Source: Prevotellaceae bacterium (GTDB lineage: Bacteria > Bacteroidota > Bacteroidia > Bacteroidales > Bacteroidaceae). Taken from it: 35,773 bases of DNA. The notes under the pieces were generated by a model. The model saw nothing but the letters and a program-made list of their open reading frames with translations. It was not told where the DNA came from and did no database searches. The translations under genes and the position numbers were made by a program. Below are positions 1,860 to 7,707 of the stretch, one piece after another. The stretch is taken from contig JAFLUV010000002.1 in assembly GCA_022508635.1 (NCBI GenBank), positions 1 to 35,773 on the forward strand, read 5' to 3'. Within the stretch, counting starts at the first letter, position 1. Every line of letters starts with the position of its first letter.

Positions 1860-2207
1860 TTACTGGGCAGGAGCCTCAGTAGGTGCATCGGTAGCAGCAG
1901 GCTGTTCCATGGCAGGAATGTTGCCGGGATTGGTGGGAGCCTGTTCGATGGCTTGCTGCATGATGACAGAGTCGGAACTACCCGATCCAGGCAAGCAAGC
2001 GACACTGATAACGCTCAGGGCAATCATGGTGATGGCAAGACCCCATGTTGCCTTCTCAATGAAATTAGTTGTTTTGGGAGCACCCAGAATCTGGTTGTTG
2101 CTGGCGTAGTCTGCAGCTAAGCCGCCGCCTTTTGATTCCTGAATCAGTACGATAAGGCACATGAAGATGGAAGCCAGTACAATCAGGATTACGATAGATG
2201 TGTACAT
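1860..2207 (-). CDS. secG: Preprotein translocase subunit SecG
   Basis: 115 aa; LIVLIQESKGGGLAADYASNNQILGAPKTTNFIEKATWGLA typical of Bacteroidetes SecG. Confidence 0.93.
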   Translation of the reverse strand: MYTSIVILIVLASIFMCLIVLIQESKGGGLAADYASNNQILGAPKTTNFIEKATWGLAITMIALSVISVACLPGSGSSDSVIMQQAIEQAPTNPGNIPAMEQPAATDAPTEAPAQ

Positions 2208-2985: not shown

Positions 2986-3498
2986 TTACCAATTGGCTAC
3001 CGTAGCATTAAATATCTGGTCGGTGATGTCTTTAACCATTTGTGTGACAAGTTCTTCCTGCACAGCCGTGAGTTGTTGCGAGGCATCGTACTCCGCAGTT
3101 GCGGAGAACTGACGTTCAAAATCATCGGTATGCTTCTTGTTGTTGACGAAACGAACGTTGACAGTCATCTTAAGCTGTACCTGGCTGCTGTAACCATCGC
3201 TGGAAATACCCTTGTTGTATTGGTCGAATCCTGTTATCTCGCCGGCGAGCTGCATGTCACCGTTCTTTTTTACTTGTTGTAGTTTTGTCTGGCTGGCGTA
3301 GATGTCTGTGAGCTTGTTCTGGAATATACTTTGCATGGGAGCCCAGACATAGGTGCTGCGTATGGGAAAGTTGTCAATCTGGATGGTCTTTGTCGTCTCA
3401 TAGTCGATGCTGGCACCATTGAAGCGATAGCTGATGGTACATGCCGATACAAGCAGTGCGGCGAGCAACGGCAAAGTGCGAACCAAGCGTTTATTCAT
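2986..3498 (-). CDS. lptE: LPS assembly lipoprotein LptE-like
   Basis: Trimmed to MNKRLVRTLPLLAALLVSACTISYRFNGASIDYETTKTIQIDNFP (lipobox LVSAC). The upstream part of the ORF is antisense-frame extension into the activator gene; true overlap is 8 nt. Confidence 0.82.
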   Translation of the reverse strand: MNKRLVRTLPLLAALLVSACTISYRFNGASIDYETTKTIQIDNFPIRSTYVWAPMQSIFQNKLTDIYASQTKLQQVKKNGDMQLAGEITGFDQYNKGISSDGYSSQVQLKMTVNVRFVNNKKHTDDFERQFSATAEYDASQQLTAVQEELVTQMVKDITDQIFNATVANW

Positions 3499-4750
3499 CG
3501 ATACCATAGGCTTTGATTTTCCGATAGAGTGTGCGTTCGCTGATGCCAAGCTCTTCAGCAGCCAGTTTGCGCCGGTAGTGGTTGCGCTGAAGTGCAAGCA
3601 GAATGTTTCGTTTCTCCATGTCGCCGATATTGAGCGTCTCATCATCAATGATTTCCTCAGCAGTAGGGATATCCACGTCAAGAGGATGGGTATTTCTGCC
3701 TTCATGCAAGGAACGATAAGTATGTGCTATCGGTGGTGTACCTTTCTGAGTATTAATGGGCACAGGCATTGTCGTGCCGGTCTGTGCGTCGTGCCATGCT
3801 TCGCCTCCGTGCAGCTTCTGTTTGAGTTCCTGCACCTCAGAGCGAAGTTCAAAGACGGCATGAGCCAAAATTTTTATCTCCTGTTCGTAATCATGCTGGG
3901 TGCTCGATTTGTTACTCCCTTCTATGGTAGCAATGCCGGTGTCAGCCTCGGAGTTAGGGGTAATGCCATGCTTGGCAAGCATTTCCGGCGTGATGTTGCG
4001 ACTCTGGGAGAGGATGCTCAGCTGTTCCGTGATGTTGCGCAACTGTCGTATATTGCCAGGCCATTTGTAGGAATTGACGACGGCCTCCGCCTCCGAAGTG
4101 AGGCGTATGGGCTCTGGAATGTTGTAGCGTTGTGCAGTGTCGAGGGCGAACTTCTTGAAAAGAAGAACGGCATCTCCCTGGCGGTCGCGAAGGGGCGGTA
4201 TTTTGATGTTGATGGTGCAGAGGCGATAGTAGAGGTCTTCGCGGAAACGTCCCTGCTTGATGGCGTTGGGGATGTCCACGTTGGTCGCAGCCACGATACG
4301 TGCATTGGTCTTGCGTGGCATGCTGCTGCCTACTCGCAGGTATTCGCCTGTCTCCAAGACGCGCAGCAATCGTGCCTGCGTACTCATAGGCAGTTCGCCT
4401 ACCTCATCAAGGAAAAGCGTACCGCCGTCAGCTGTACCGAAATAACCCTCGTGTTCACCAATAGCGCTGGTAAAGGATCCCTTTTCGTGTCCGAAAAGCT
4501 CACTGTCAATAGTTCCTTCGGGTATGGAACCGCAGTTAATGGCAATGTATGTTTTGCCGCGTCTTTTGCTATAGTCGTGTATGACACGTGGAATGACTTC
4601 TTTACCCACGCCGCTTTCGCCCTGTATGAGGACGGAGAGGTCGGTGGGTGCCACGAGAACGGCTGTGGCGAGAGCTTCACGCAGTGCTTCGTTGCGTCCC
4701 ACTATGCCATAGCGGTTCATCAACGTCTGCATATCGGGATTTGTAGTCAT
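3491..4750 (-). CDS. Sigma-54-type AAA+ transcriptional activator with Fis-like HTH, no receiver domain
   Basis: Walker A GESGVGKE, ELFGHEKGSFTSA, GGTLFLDEVGELP, C-terminal KRNILLALQRNHYRRKLAAEELGISERTLYRKIKAYGI. Confidence 0.92.
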   Translation of the reverse strand: MTTNPDMQTLMNRYGIVGRNEALREALATAVLVAPTDLSVLIQGESGVGKEVIPRVIHDYSKRRGKTYIAINCGSIPEGTIDSELFGHEKGSFTSAIGEHEGYFGTADGGTLFLDEVGELPMSTQARLLRVLETGEYLRVGSSMPRKTNARIVAATNVDIPNAIKQGRFREDLYYRLCTINIKIPPLRDRQGDAVLLFKKFALDTAQRYNIPEPIRLTSEAEAVVNSYKWPGNIRQLRNITEQLSILSQSRNITPEMLAKHGITPNSEADTGIATIEGSNKSSTQHDYEQEIKILAHAVFELRSEVQELKQKLHGGEAWHDAQTGTTMPVPINTQKGTPPIAHTYRSLHEGRNTHPLDVDIPTAEEIIDDETLNIGDMEKRNILLALQRNHYRRKLAAEELGISERTLYRKIKAYGIDE

Positions 4751-5556
4751 GATGCCGTTTCTGTATTATCAGTTTTCTTATTTGCCTGTGCTGCCTCATC
4801 TCTCTTGCGCTCGTCTCTCTTGTCGCGGAAAAGCTTGGGAAGGATGTTTTTTCGTGCCTCGTCATAAAAAACACGATTTCGGATAACGTCGATGGCAGTA
4901 TAAAAAGGATGCGTCAGCCAGGAAACATCGGCTATTCCTTCTTCAATTTCTTTCGTCTGTCCCGGCAGACAGATAGCAGTAATGACCGTATTTCCGCCGG
5001 CATAGTAGCAGACGGGGGCTTCCTGCGCAACTTCTACAATGATATGTTGTGCAAGTTCTTTGCCTCTGACGATGATGCCGTCGAAATGTATTATTGTGTC
5101 CTCTGCCAAAATCTGTTCTAAGGTATAGGGGCCATAGGTATTGATGCCCTGCTCTATTGTGACTTGATTGGCAAGGTCTGGGTTTTGCATGCCAGTCTCC
5201 TGGACAATGGCAATACGCGGCGAACGCAGGTCAAAGTCACGTTCAAGGACGTTGCGAAGCTTGATGACATCTTCTGCGGTCGGCTCCTCTGCAGTTGGCA
5301 TGACATGTGTCCTTCCAGTTACTATAATCTCGGTGGCATTGGCAAGATACTTTGCCGGTTCGTTTGTCTGACCAAGTACCAACGCGGCTACCTTACCATC
5401 GTTGAGGTCGTTAAAGGCTGTTTCCTCTTGCCCTGCACCATAGACAATGGGTGTGCAGATCTCATGCATGGCAGGATCTTCGAAGAGTTTATCCGCGAGT
5501 TCCTGAGTTGTGGCATCGTAGTTGCCTTGGATGATGGCTATCTTGAGTTTCTCCAT
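4747..5556 (-). CDS. Divergent, shortened PdxA-like protein (probable pseudoenzyme)
   Basis: 269 aa; N-terminus (MEKLKIAIIQG..DPAMHEICTPIVYG) and C-terminal half (FDLRSPRIAIV, YGPYTLEQIL..HFDGIIV, FYTAIDVIRNRVFYDEARKNIL) resemble Bacteroidales PdxA, but catalytic His motifs are missing. 4-nt overlap with the activator gene. Confidence 0.75.
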   Translation of the reverse strand: MEKLKIAIIQGNYDATTQELADKLFEDPAMHEICTPIVYGAGQEETAFNDLNDGKVAALVLGQTNEPAKYLANATEIIVTGRTHVMPTAEEPTAEDVIKLRNVLERDFDLRSPRIAIVQETGMQNPDLANQVTIEQGINTYGPYTLEQILAEDTIIHFDGIIVRGKELAQHIIVEVAQEAPVCYYAGGNTVITAICLPGQTKEIEEGIADVSWLTHPFYTAIDVIRNRVFYDEARKNILPKLFRDKRDERKRDEAAQANKKTDNTETAS

Positions 5557-5595: not shown

Positions 5596-6636
5596 TCATT
5601 GTTGTGTGGGGGCTTTCTCCTCTTCCATCCCTGTGTCAATGAGCGAGAATTGTTCCTCTGGAAGTTGCAGCGTATAAAGCGATCCTTCAAGGCGGCGAAT
5701 CAGTCCGCGCTTCATCTTTTCTGGAGCATAGACAAAGCCCTCGACTACAATGACACGGTTCGTCTCAGTGTCAACACGGAAATGACTGACGAAGGGACCG
5801 CCCATGCAATCGTTCTCCATGTACCAGAGGCCGCGTGCCTCCATCGCATAGCGGTTGTGTACTACGATAGGCTTGACCATTGAGCACAGTGTATCAGTCT
5901 TCATATACATACCGGGCTTTTCGCCAGGGAGGTTTGCCTTCATGACCGAGTCACGCTTGGCAAGCATGTATTCCTTGTTGAACGTTTCCGGACCCTCATA
6001 GGGATAGCTGTACATGACAATGTTTTCCAGTCCGCTGGCCGTGTTGTTACTTGTCCAGAAAAAATGTTCGCCTTCCTTGTAACTGGTGAGTTCCTTGGGA
6101 GCATAGAAACGACATGTGAAAATTTGCCAAGCCAGATCATAAGTGACTTTTGAGTATTTTTTCTCCAGTTCCTTGATGAGACGGTTCATTTCAGAGCGTG
6201 TCAGAAAGTCAATCACATCCTGTTTGTGGTCGATGCAGAACTGCCTGAACTCTTCCTCGCTCGGACTATTGATGGTGAGTACAATCTGATCCATGGCATA
6301 CTTGTTGCGCATGAAGCGCATGCCGGTGCGGGAGTATTGTGTCTTGTCAATGTTGACCTGTATAATATTTCGGAAGATGCTGAAGGCCTGGTCGAGGTTT
6401 TTCGGCTCAATCTGCATGATACGGAATGAACGTTCGCTCTGCGGCAAATAAGGAACATCGGTGTCAAGGATGTCAAAGAGAGCCCGTCCTGCTGGGTCAT
6501 TCCACGTCTTGTTGTCAAGCACGACAAGTACTTCATATGGACGTCCGCTGGCTTGTGGAAAGAAGTGCTCCCTCTTGCAGCTGCCTAAAAGAAGCAGGCA
6601 CAGGAACGCTGTTAAGGAGAATAAATAGTGTTTCAT
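5596..6636 (-). CDS. DUF4837 family lipoprotein
   Basis: 346 aa; lipobox LLLLGSC; sequence and position next to rlmN recall Bacteroidales DUF4837. Confidence 0.8.
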   Translation of the reverse strand: MKHYLFSLTAFLCLLLLGSCKREHFFPQASGRPYEVLVVLDNKTWNDPAGRALFDILDTDVPYLPQSERSFRIMQIEPKNLDQAFSIFRNIIQVNIDKTQYSRTGMRFMRNKYAMDQIVLTINSPSEEEFRQFCIDHKQDVIDFLTRSEMNRLIKELEKKYSKVTYDLAWQIFTCRFYAPKELTSYKEGEHFFWTSNNTASGLENIVMYSYPYEGPETFNKEYMLAKRDSVMKANLPGEKPGMYMKTDTLCSMVKPIVVHNRYAMEARGLWYMENDCMGGPFVSHFRVDTETNRVIVVEGFVYAPEKMKRGLIRRLEGSLYTLQLPEEQFSLIDTGMEEEKAPTQQ

Positions 6637-6651
6637 AATCTGTTATTACTT

Positions 6652-7707
6652 TTATGATGTGGCATTACATTCTTCATGAGTCCCTAATTTCCCGGCAGAA
6701 ACCGAGTGCAGTAGTCCGCAGGCTGCATAGATGTCCTGTCCACGGCTGGCGCGAATGGTGGTGGTCACACCGTGATGTGTCAGGTAGTCGCGCAGCCAGA
6801 CCATCTTTTCCTCCGAAACGCCATGGTAAGGTGTGTCAGGTATCTCATGGAAACGAATCAGGTTGATGCGGCATTCCAGAGGGGAGAGCAAGCGTACCAA
6901 TTCGCGGGCATGACGCTCTGTATCGTTGAGACCGTCAAAGACGATGTACTCAAAACTGAGTCTTCGTTGGTGACTCCAGTCTTGTTGCCGGAGTAGTGTC
7001 AGTAACTGGGTGATGCCGTATGTTTTCTCTGAGGGCATCATTTTGAGGCGTTCATCTGGGAAAGGATTGTGCAGGCTAATGGCAAGGTGGCAATTGCTCT
7101 CTAAAAGGAAACGTTCCACACTTTGTCGTACACCAACCGTGGAAACAGTGATACGCTTGGGGCTCCATGCCCAGCCCTCAGGAGCAGTGAGCAGACTGGT
7201 GGCTCGTAGTACGGCATCCAGGTTGTCCATTGGCTCGCCTTGGCCCATGAAGACAATGTTGGTGAGTAGCTCGCTGTTTGGCACGGAATAGACTTGGTTA
7301 AGGATGTCTGTTGCAGAGAGGTTTCCTCCGAAGCCTTGCCTGCCTGTCATGCAGAAGCGGCATCCCATTCGGCATCCGACTTGCGAACTGACACATAGTG
7401 TGGCGCGGTCGCCGTCGGGGATGAAGACGCATTCCACTTCCTGACCGTTTTCTGTGGGGAAGAGATATTTTGCTGTCCCGTCAATGCTTTGTTGCACGTC
7501 ACATGGCGGCACACAGCCTATGGTGTAGCGTTCTGCCAGAACCGTGCGGCTTTTAAGCGACAGGTTGGTCATCTCTTCGATGCATTTTACCCGCTTGCCG
7601 TAGATCCACTCTGCTATCTGCTTTGCTGCATAGCCAGGCAACCCCTCCTCGGTACAGATCGTCTTCAGTTCGTCCAGCGTTTTGCCAAGCAGTTTCTTCT
7701 TTCCCAT
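6652..7707 (-). CDS. rlmN: Dual-specificity 23S rRNA/tRNA adenine-C2 methyltransferase RlmN
   Basis: Radical-SAM CRMGCRFCMTGRQG, NIVFMGQGEPMDN, AISLHNPFPDERLKMMP. Confidence 0.95.
   Translation of the reverse strand: MGKKKLLGKTLDELKTICTEEGLPGYAAKQIAEWIYGKRVKCIEEMTNLSLKSRTVLAERYTIGCVPPCDVQQSIDGTAKYLFPTENGQEVECVFIPDGDRATLCVSSQVGCRMGCRFCMTGRQGFGGNLSATDILNQVYSVPNSELLTNIVFMGQGEPMDNLDAVLRATSLLTAPEGWAWSPKRITVSTVGVRQSVERFLLESNCHLAISLHNPFPDERLKMMPSEKTYGITQLLTLLRQQDWSHQRRLSFEYIVFDGLNDTERHARELVRLLSPLECRINLIRFHEIPDTPYHGVSEEKMVWLRDYLTHHGVTTTIRASRGQDIYAACGLLHSVSAGKLGTHEECNATS

Follow-up and report, generated by a model that had tools for sequence, protein, structure and literature searches.

The open reading frame (ORF) under study lies on the minus strand of the window, that is, the whole 35,773-nucleotide stretch of DNA that was analysed, where the following features are found.

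1860–2207, minus strand: SecG (Pfam)
2986–3705, minus strand: LptE (Pfam)
3491–4750, minus strand: sigma-54-type AAA+ activator with a Fis-type HTH, the downstream neighbour (Pfam PF00158, PF02954)
4747–4750, minus strand: 4-nt overlap (ATGA) between the end of the ORF and the start of the activator (coordinates)
4747–5556, minus strand: PdxA-derived ORF of 269 aa, intact, with its catalytic site lost (ORF call, alignments, profile comparison)
4810–4911, minus strand: residues 216–249, C-terminal helix and LPKLFRDKRDE tail, the most constrained segment, also present in the full PdxA of the genus (omega 0.048, alignment)
5053–5070, minus strand: residues 163–168, VRGKEL, where PdxA has the MYHDQG metal motif (alignment)
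5074–5241, minus strand: residues 106–161, conserved core running from RDFDLRSPRIAI through YGPY to HFDGI (omega 0.073, alignment)
5440–5556, minus strand: residues 1–39, PdxA N-terminal strand and EDPAMHEICTPIVY segment, loosely conserved (alignment, omega 0.237)
5596–6636, minus strand: DUF4837 protein, the upstream neighbour and the anchor by which the slot was found in other genomes (Pfam PF16125)
6652–7707, minus strand: RlmN (Pfam)

Pfam gives the order RlmN-DUF4837-ORF-activator-LptE-(unnamed ORF)-SecG and so confirms the pdxA-type slot that a first-pass annotation of this DNA had proposed; in a genome of the same family (G195) the arrangement is RlmN-DUF4837-full PdxA-activator. No paper naming the DUF4837 family was found in the open-access literature.

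The ORF descends from PdxA (4-hydroxythreonine-4-phosphate dehydrogenase; PF04166, TIGR00557). Taken alone, the window protein matches no Pfam family above cut-off and no NCBIfam family, PF04166 and TIGR00557 included, and searches of the PDB with the protein and with its profile returned nothing meaningful, which would suit an unrelated gene that came to occupy the slot of PdxA and has only a chance resemblance to it. That explanation is refuted by the intermediates, by direct PF04166 matches of a sister group and by the profile comparisons, and we give it practically no weight. With the window protein as a tblastn query, close orthologues of ~265 aa were found in same-genus genomes at 52–61% identity, and full-length PdxA of the same genus (G026 and G021) was matched with E-values down to about 1e-18, over residues 1–44 and about 60–258 of the query. 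When the slot protein, defined as the ORF adjoining DUF4837, was taken from 124 same-genus genomes, a graded series was obtained: full PdxA of 354–467 aa, divergent forms of 331–369 aa, a group of 279–294 aa, the window's own group of 260–293 aa, and two groups of 214–246 aa. The sister group (280 aa) clears PF04166 directly with 40 bits against a cut-off of 27, and 7 of the 26 members of the window's group have a PdxA-family match at E ≤ 0.1, the best being 2.8e-5. In profile-profile comparison the window's group matches full PdxA with a probability of 100 and an E-value of 7e-41, and three other degenerate groups give 2e-34, 2e-15 and 2e-56; these values are supportive and not calibrated, because profile depth was low and no unrelated pair served as a negative control. 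The AlphaFold model of the window protein, built on an alignment of only two sequences (the window protein and L001), has a pLDDT of 41, too low for interpretation.

Besides descent and slot, the window protein shares with PdxA the N-terminal segment, the RDF..PRI and YDG strands, the C-terminal helix and the genus-type tail. Unlike PdxA, it lacks the three metal histidines, GHTE and HGTAYD, occurs in PdxST genomes, and is ~90 residues shorter (269 vs 355–360). The PdxA-like ends and the shrinkage claimed in the first-pass annotation are borne out through the intermediates, the loss being ~90 residues.

PdxA binds its metal through H166, H211 and H266 (E. coli numbering), and alignment to E. 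coli PdxA places these histidines within THLPL, NPHAG and MYHDQG, respectively. In the window protein the positions of H166 and H211 fall in deleted stretches, the NPHAG site having lain between PRIAI and YGPY, and MYHDQG has become VRGKEL. All three metal positions are therefore gone, as had been claimed, but two of the motifs then named as metal sites, GHTE and HGTAYD, are active-site motifs other than metal ligands. Every one of the 57 PdxJ-positive slots of the genus retains H166, H211 and H266 as well as H136, D267, the histidine of HGTA and the arginine of VRTSP; at least one metal histidine is missing from 63 of 64 degenerate slots, G107 being the sole keeper of all three. The earlier description of the window protein as a putatively non-catalytic positional orthologue of pdxA is supported.

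The ORF is nevertheless under purifying selection. A codon model fitted to the window's group (n = 26) gives an omega of 0.172, close pairs agree with it at about 0.1–0.3, and a model with omega fixed at 1 is worse by 888 lnL, which settles in favour of selection the dN/dS check proposed for this intact ORF. The three other degenerate groups have omegas of 0.112, 0.171 and 0.076, and the comparators are 0.072 for full PdxA and 0.03–0.04 for DUF4837. Along the protein of the window's group, from N to C terminus, the segment omegas are 0.237, 0.194, 0.073, 0.248, 0.048 and 0.166, and the C-terminal helix and tail are again lowest (0.037) in the group of 214–239 aa. Synonymous divergence in the tail of the window's group is 0.41, vs 0.49–0.57 in the main other segments, and in the shortest group it is not lowered; since this effect is mild in the one group and missing in the other, the constraint on the tail acts at the protein level. 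Besides Met1, seven residues are kept at 100% in 64 of 64 degenerate forms (R203, D260, D324, R329, L340, K342 and L343 in G032 numbering), of which L340, K342 and L343 belong to the tail.

Slow decay of a pseudogene, or retention of the DNA for the sake of its nucleotides (a promoter or coupling, for instance), finds some encouragement in the faster evolution of the window's group relative to full PdxA and in its loose N-terminal and middle segments. Against this stand the rejection of omega = 1, the intactness of all 64 degenerate ORFs, the synonymous divergence of the tail in the shortest group and the variation of neighbouring genes, so that this reading is largely refuted and very improbable. 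By the same comparisons of sequences, the window protein is very probably a retained pseudoenzyme.

The charged C-terminal tail had been regarded as new on the first pass. It is ancestral: full-length PdxA of the genus already ends in an NPLPKLYxDKRxD-type tail, which differs from the PdxA tails of other families, and the variable part of the tail of the window protein is confined to its last ~20 residues. In full PdxA the constraint on the tail does not exceed that on other parts of the protein.

The loss of the active site coincides with a change in the supply of vitamin B6. One survey recognises the DXP-dependent route by PdxJ and the other route by PdxST (PMC9997740), and in gut genomes PdxAJ and PdxST have been handled as two alternatives (PMC6593275). 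PdxJ was detected in 66 and PdxS in 52 of 139 same-genus genomes, the two never together, and full-scoring PdxA never occurs with PdxS. Intact PdxA was found in all 57 PdxJ-positive slots examined, and an intact yet degraded ORF of 214–369 aa in all 64 PdxJ-negative slots that lack a full-scoring PdxA. These 64 are accompanied by PdxS in 49 cases and by no detected PdxS or PdxJ in 15, and some of the gaps may be assembly gaps, because most of those genomes are an estimated 60–97% complete or so. Only two genomes have a full-scoring PdxA without PdxJ: G131, where the lack may just reflect incompleteness, and G108, in which the HGT histidine has already been lost. In the window's own genome (84.5% complete), where a second pdxA, pdxJ and pdxST had been suggested as a check, no PdxJ and no PdxA above cut-off were detectable, and PdxS and PdxT lie adjacent on contig C151. 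The lineage has swapped the DXP-dependent route (PdxA/PdxJ) for PdxS/PdxT.

Several further observations concern these genomes. Seven of them (G015, G017, G101, G105, G109, G129 and G149) have PdxJ without detectable PdxA or slot-type DUF4837; the locus was probably missed in assembly, which fits a completeness of about 85%, the alternative being that PdxA was lost and PdxJ kept. The C-terminal domain of PdxH (PF10590) was found in 0 of 139 same-genus genomes, including those with PdxA and PdxJ, and the PNP-to-PLP step is therefore a pathway hole in the genus. PdxS lies in frames of 580–582 aa, about twice the usual length and possibly PdxS-PdxT fusions, in G034 (C98:41839-42453) and G133 (C71:2959-3573). 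A second DUF4837 paralogue is encoded elsewhere in most PdxJ-positive and many other genomes, and the window's close group has the slot copy only.

A fast tree of DUF4837 suggested that the degenerate forms arose at least twice within the genus, but a single clade was not rejected (AU p 0.167; 0.778 with G107 left out), and an independent-pairs test in the genus, with 4 pairs, was uninformative. Since a single origin in the genus is not rejected, independence rests on other families.

Across the order, PdxA scores over the cut-off in 243 of 247 genomes. A PdxA is still present in each of the nine PdxS-positive genomes from other genera, scoring 42–339 bits vs roughly 360–390 for a typical one. 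Six further low scorers and, as controls, five genomes with a normal score were added to these nine; the set was picked by PdxA score and PdxS, and PdxJ was examined in it afterwards. PdxJ is missing from all 15 genomes with low-scoring PdxA and was found in all 5 controls. Each of the 15 low-scoring proteins has at least one broken catalytic motif, and a metal histidine is missing in 12. In three of the four family comparisons the degenerate protein keeps the family-specific tail of its PdxJ-positive relative, namely ELEADKKIC in G191 and G363 (two members of one genus), NPLK.QY..RG.DNE.LDLTK in G311 and G382, and PLRKQYYEK.DDSDKLK in G364 and G287; the fourth comparison, G278 vs G179, shows a loss of the tail. 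The most degraded non-genus PdxA (42 bits) belongs to G225 (L231), a 1.2 Mb genome of another family with PdxS and no PdxJ; its reading frame, about 330 aa long, is still open. Some PdxA domains of other families lie within frames of 511–731 aa and are possible fusions (G044:C21:9987-10862, G182, G281 and G359).

The remaining three of the 15 (G323, G238 and G336), which likewise lack PdxJ, retain H166, H211 and H266 and show changes in other active-site motifs, so that altered catalysis is possible in them. Together with G107 inside the genus, they favour the idea that the degenerate proteins are still enzymes, with a different substrate or chemistry. In the window's group, however, H166 and H211 are deleted and H266 is replaced, and no invariant new cluster of His, Asp or Glu stands out in the alignments at the lost metal positions, which makes a surviving enzyme an unlikely reading of the alignments. 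The PdxA2 or D-threonate 4-phosphate dehydrogenase type of paralogue, which serves organic acid catabolism and is cited as PdxA2 in PMC9997740, resembles the present case in being a PdxA relative outside B6 synthesis; those paralogues, however, are active enzymes with a metal site (PDB 6e85), whereas the window protein is the positional orthologue of pdxA and has none.

Another possibility is that the ORF gained a lineage-specific function as a ligand- or protein-binding regulator of the sigma-54-type activator that it overlaps. The 4-nt overlap in the window, which confirms the arrangement claimed at first sight, and the presence of the activator beside the slot in many genomes, including the same-family genome with full PdxA, speak for such a role. 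On the other hand, catalytic PdxA also precedes the activator, and degenerate forms are kept equally well beside other genes: within the genus the gene 3′ of the slot can resemble (by eye) a flippase, a CDP-alcohol phosphotransferase or a nucleotidyltransferase, and in other families the flanks of degenerate PdxA are unrelated. Because the neighbouring genes differ in this way within and outside the genus, coupling to the activator, or any other effect of neighbours, is ruled out as the cause of retention, and a regulator of the activator, as judged from gene order, seems improbable. In the group of 214–239 aa (L103, L124), CDP-alcohol-phosphotransferase-like and IspD-like genes lie between the slot and the activator.

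What, then, has kept the protein? Once PdxS/PdxT had replaced PdxA/PdxJ, PdxA would no longer have been needed for B6; its active site was deleted or overwritten, and the remainder is still under purifying selection. PdxA with a broken site was likewise kept in PdxJ-lacking genomes of other families, amid different neighbours. Because the active site was lost after the pathway switch and the protein is still under selection in several families, a second job of PdxA is probable; it would be non-enzymatic, would reside in the structural core and the C-terminal helix and tail, and would have kept the trimmed protein alive as a pseudoenzyme after the need for B6 had ended. The core with the C-terminal helix and tail would probably dock onto a protein partner; for the tail itself as the docking element, which its conservation suggests, the chances appear about even. 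The whole explanation, a retained pseudoenzyme that implies a second, non-B6 job of Bacteroidales PdxA, is the one we moderately favour. Several observations weigh against it: the lost tail in G278 vs G179, the three PdxJ-lacking genomes with intact metal histidines, the unexceptional constraint on the tail of full PdxA, the seven PdxJ-positive genomes without PdxA, and the possible single origin within the genus. It is an evenly balanced question whether PdxA is bifunctional throughout the Bacteroidales, with a conserved non-catalytic role that would be weighty enough to preserve the protein when B6 synthesis is lost or replaced, and that would be exposed at each switch of the B6 pathway as the enzyme is stripped away. 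As in pseudoenzymes in general, catalytic residues have been lost and the protein kept by selection; the present case differs in that the loss follows the replacement of an entire pathway, is seen again in several families and goes with strong shrinkage.

No description of a retained non-catalytic PdxA in Bacteroidales was found in the open-access literature, and the main text of PMC9997740 contains no word beginning "Bacteroid". In Porphyromonas gingivalis, pdxA is listed among the genes essential in vitro (PMC3547785); that list cannot tell a need for B6 synthesis from a need for some other role, and B6 alone could explain the essentiality. A gene that is kept after the need for its catalysis has gone is a natural experiment, which separates the enzyme chemistry from any other job of the protein. 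If the proposal is true, a textbook vitamin enzyme would have an unrecognised function across an order of major gut bacteria, annotation would be misled, as a PdxA match in a Bacteroidales genome would be no proof of B6 synthesis, the graded series would show which parts of PdxA serve it, and the essentiality of pdxA in P. gingivalis would be worth a second look.
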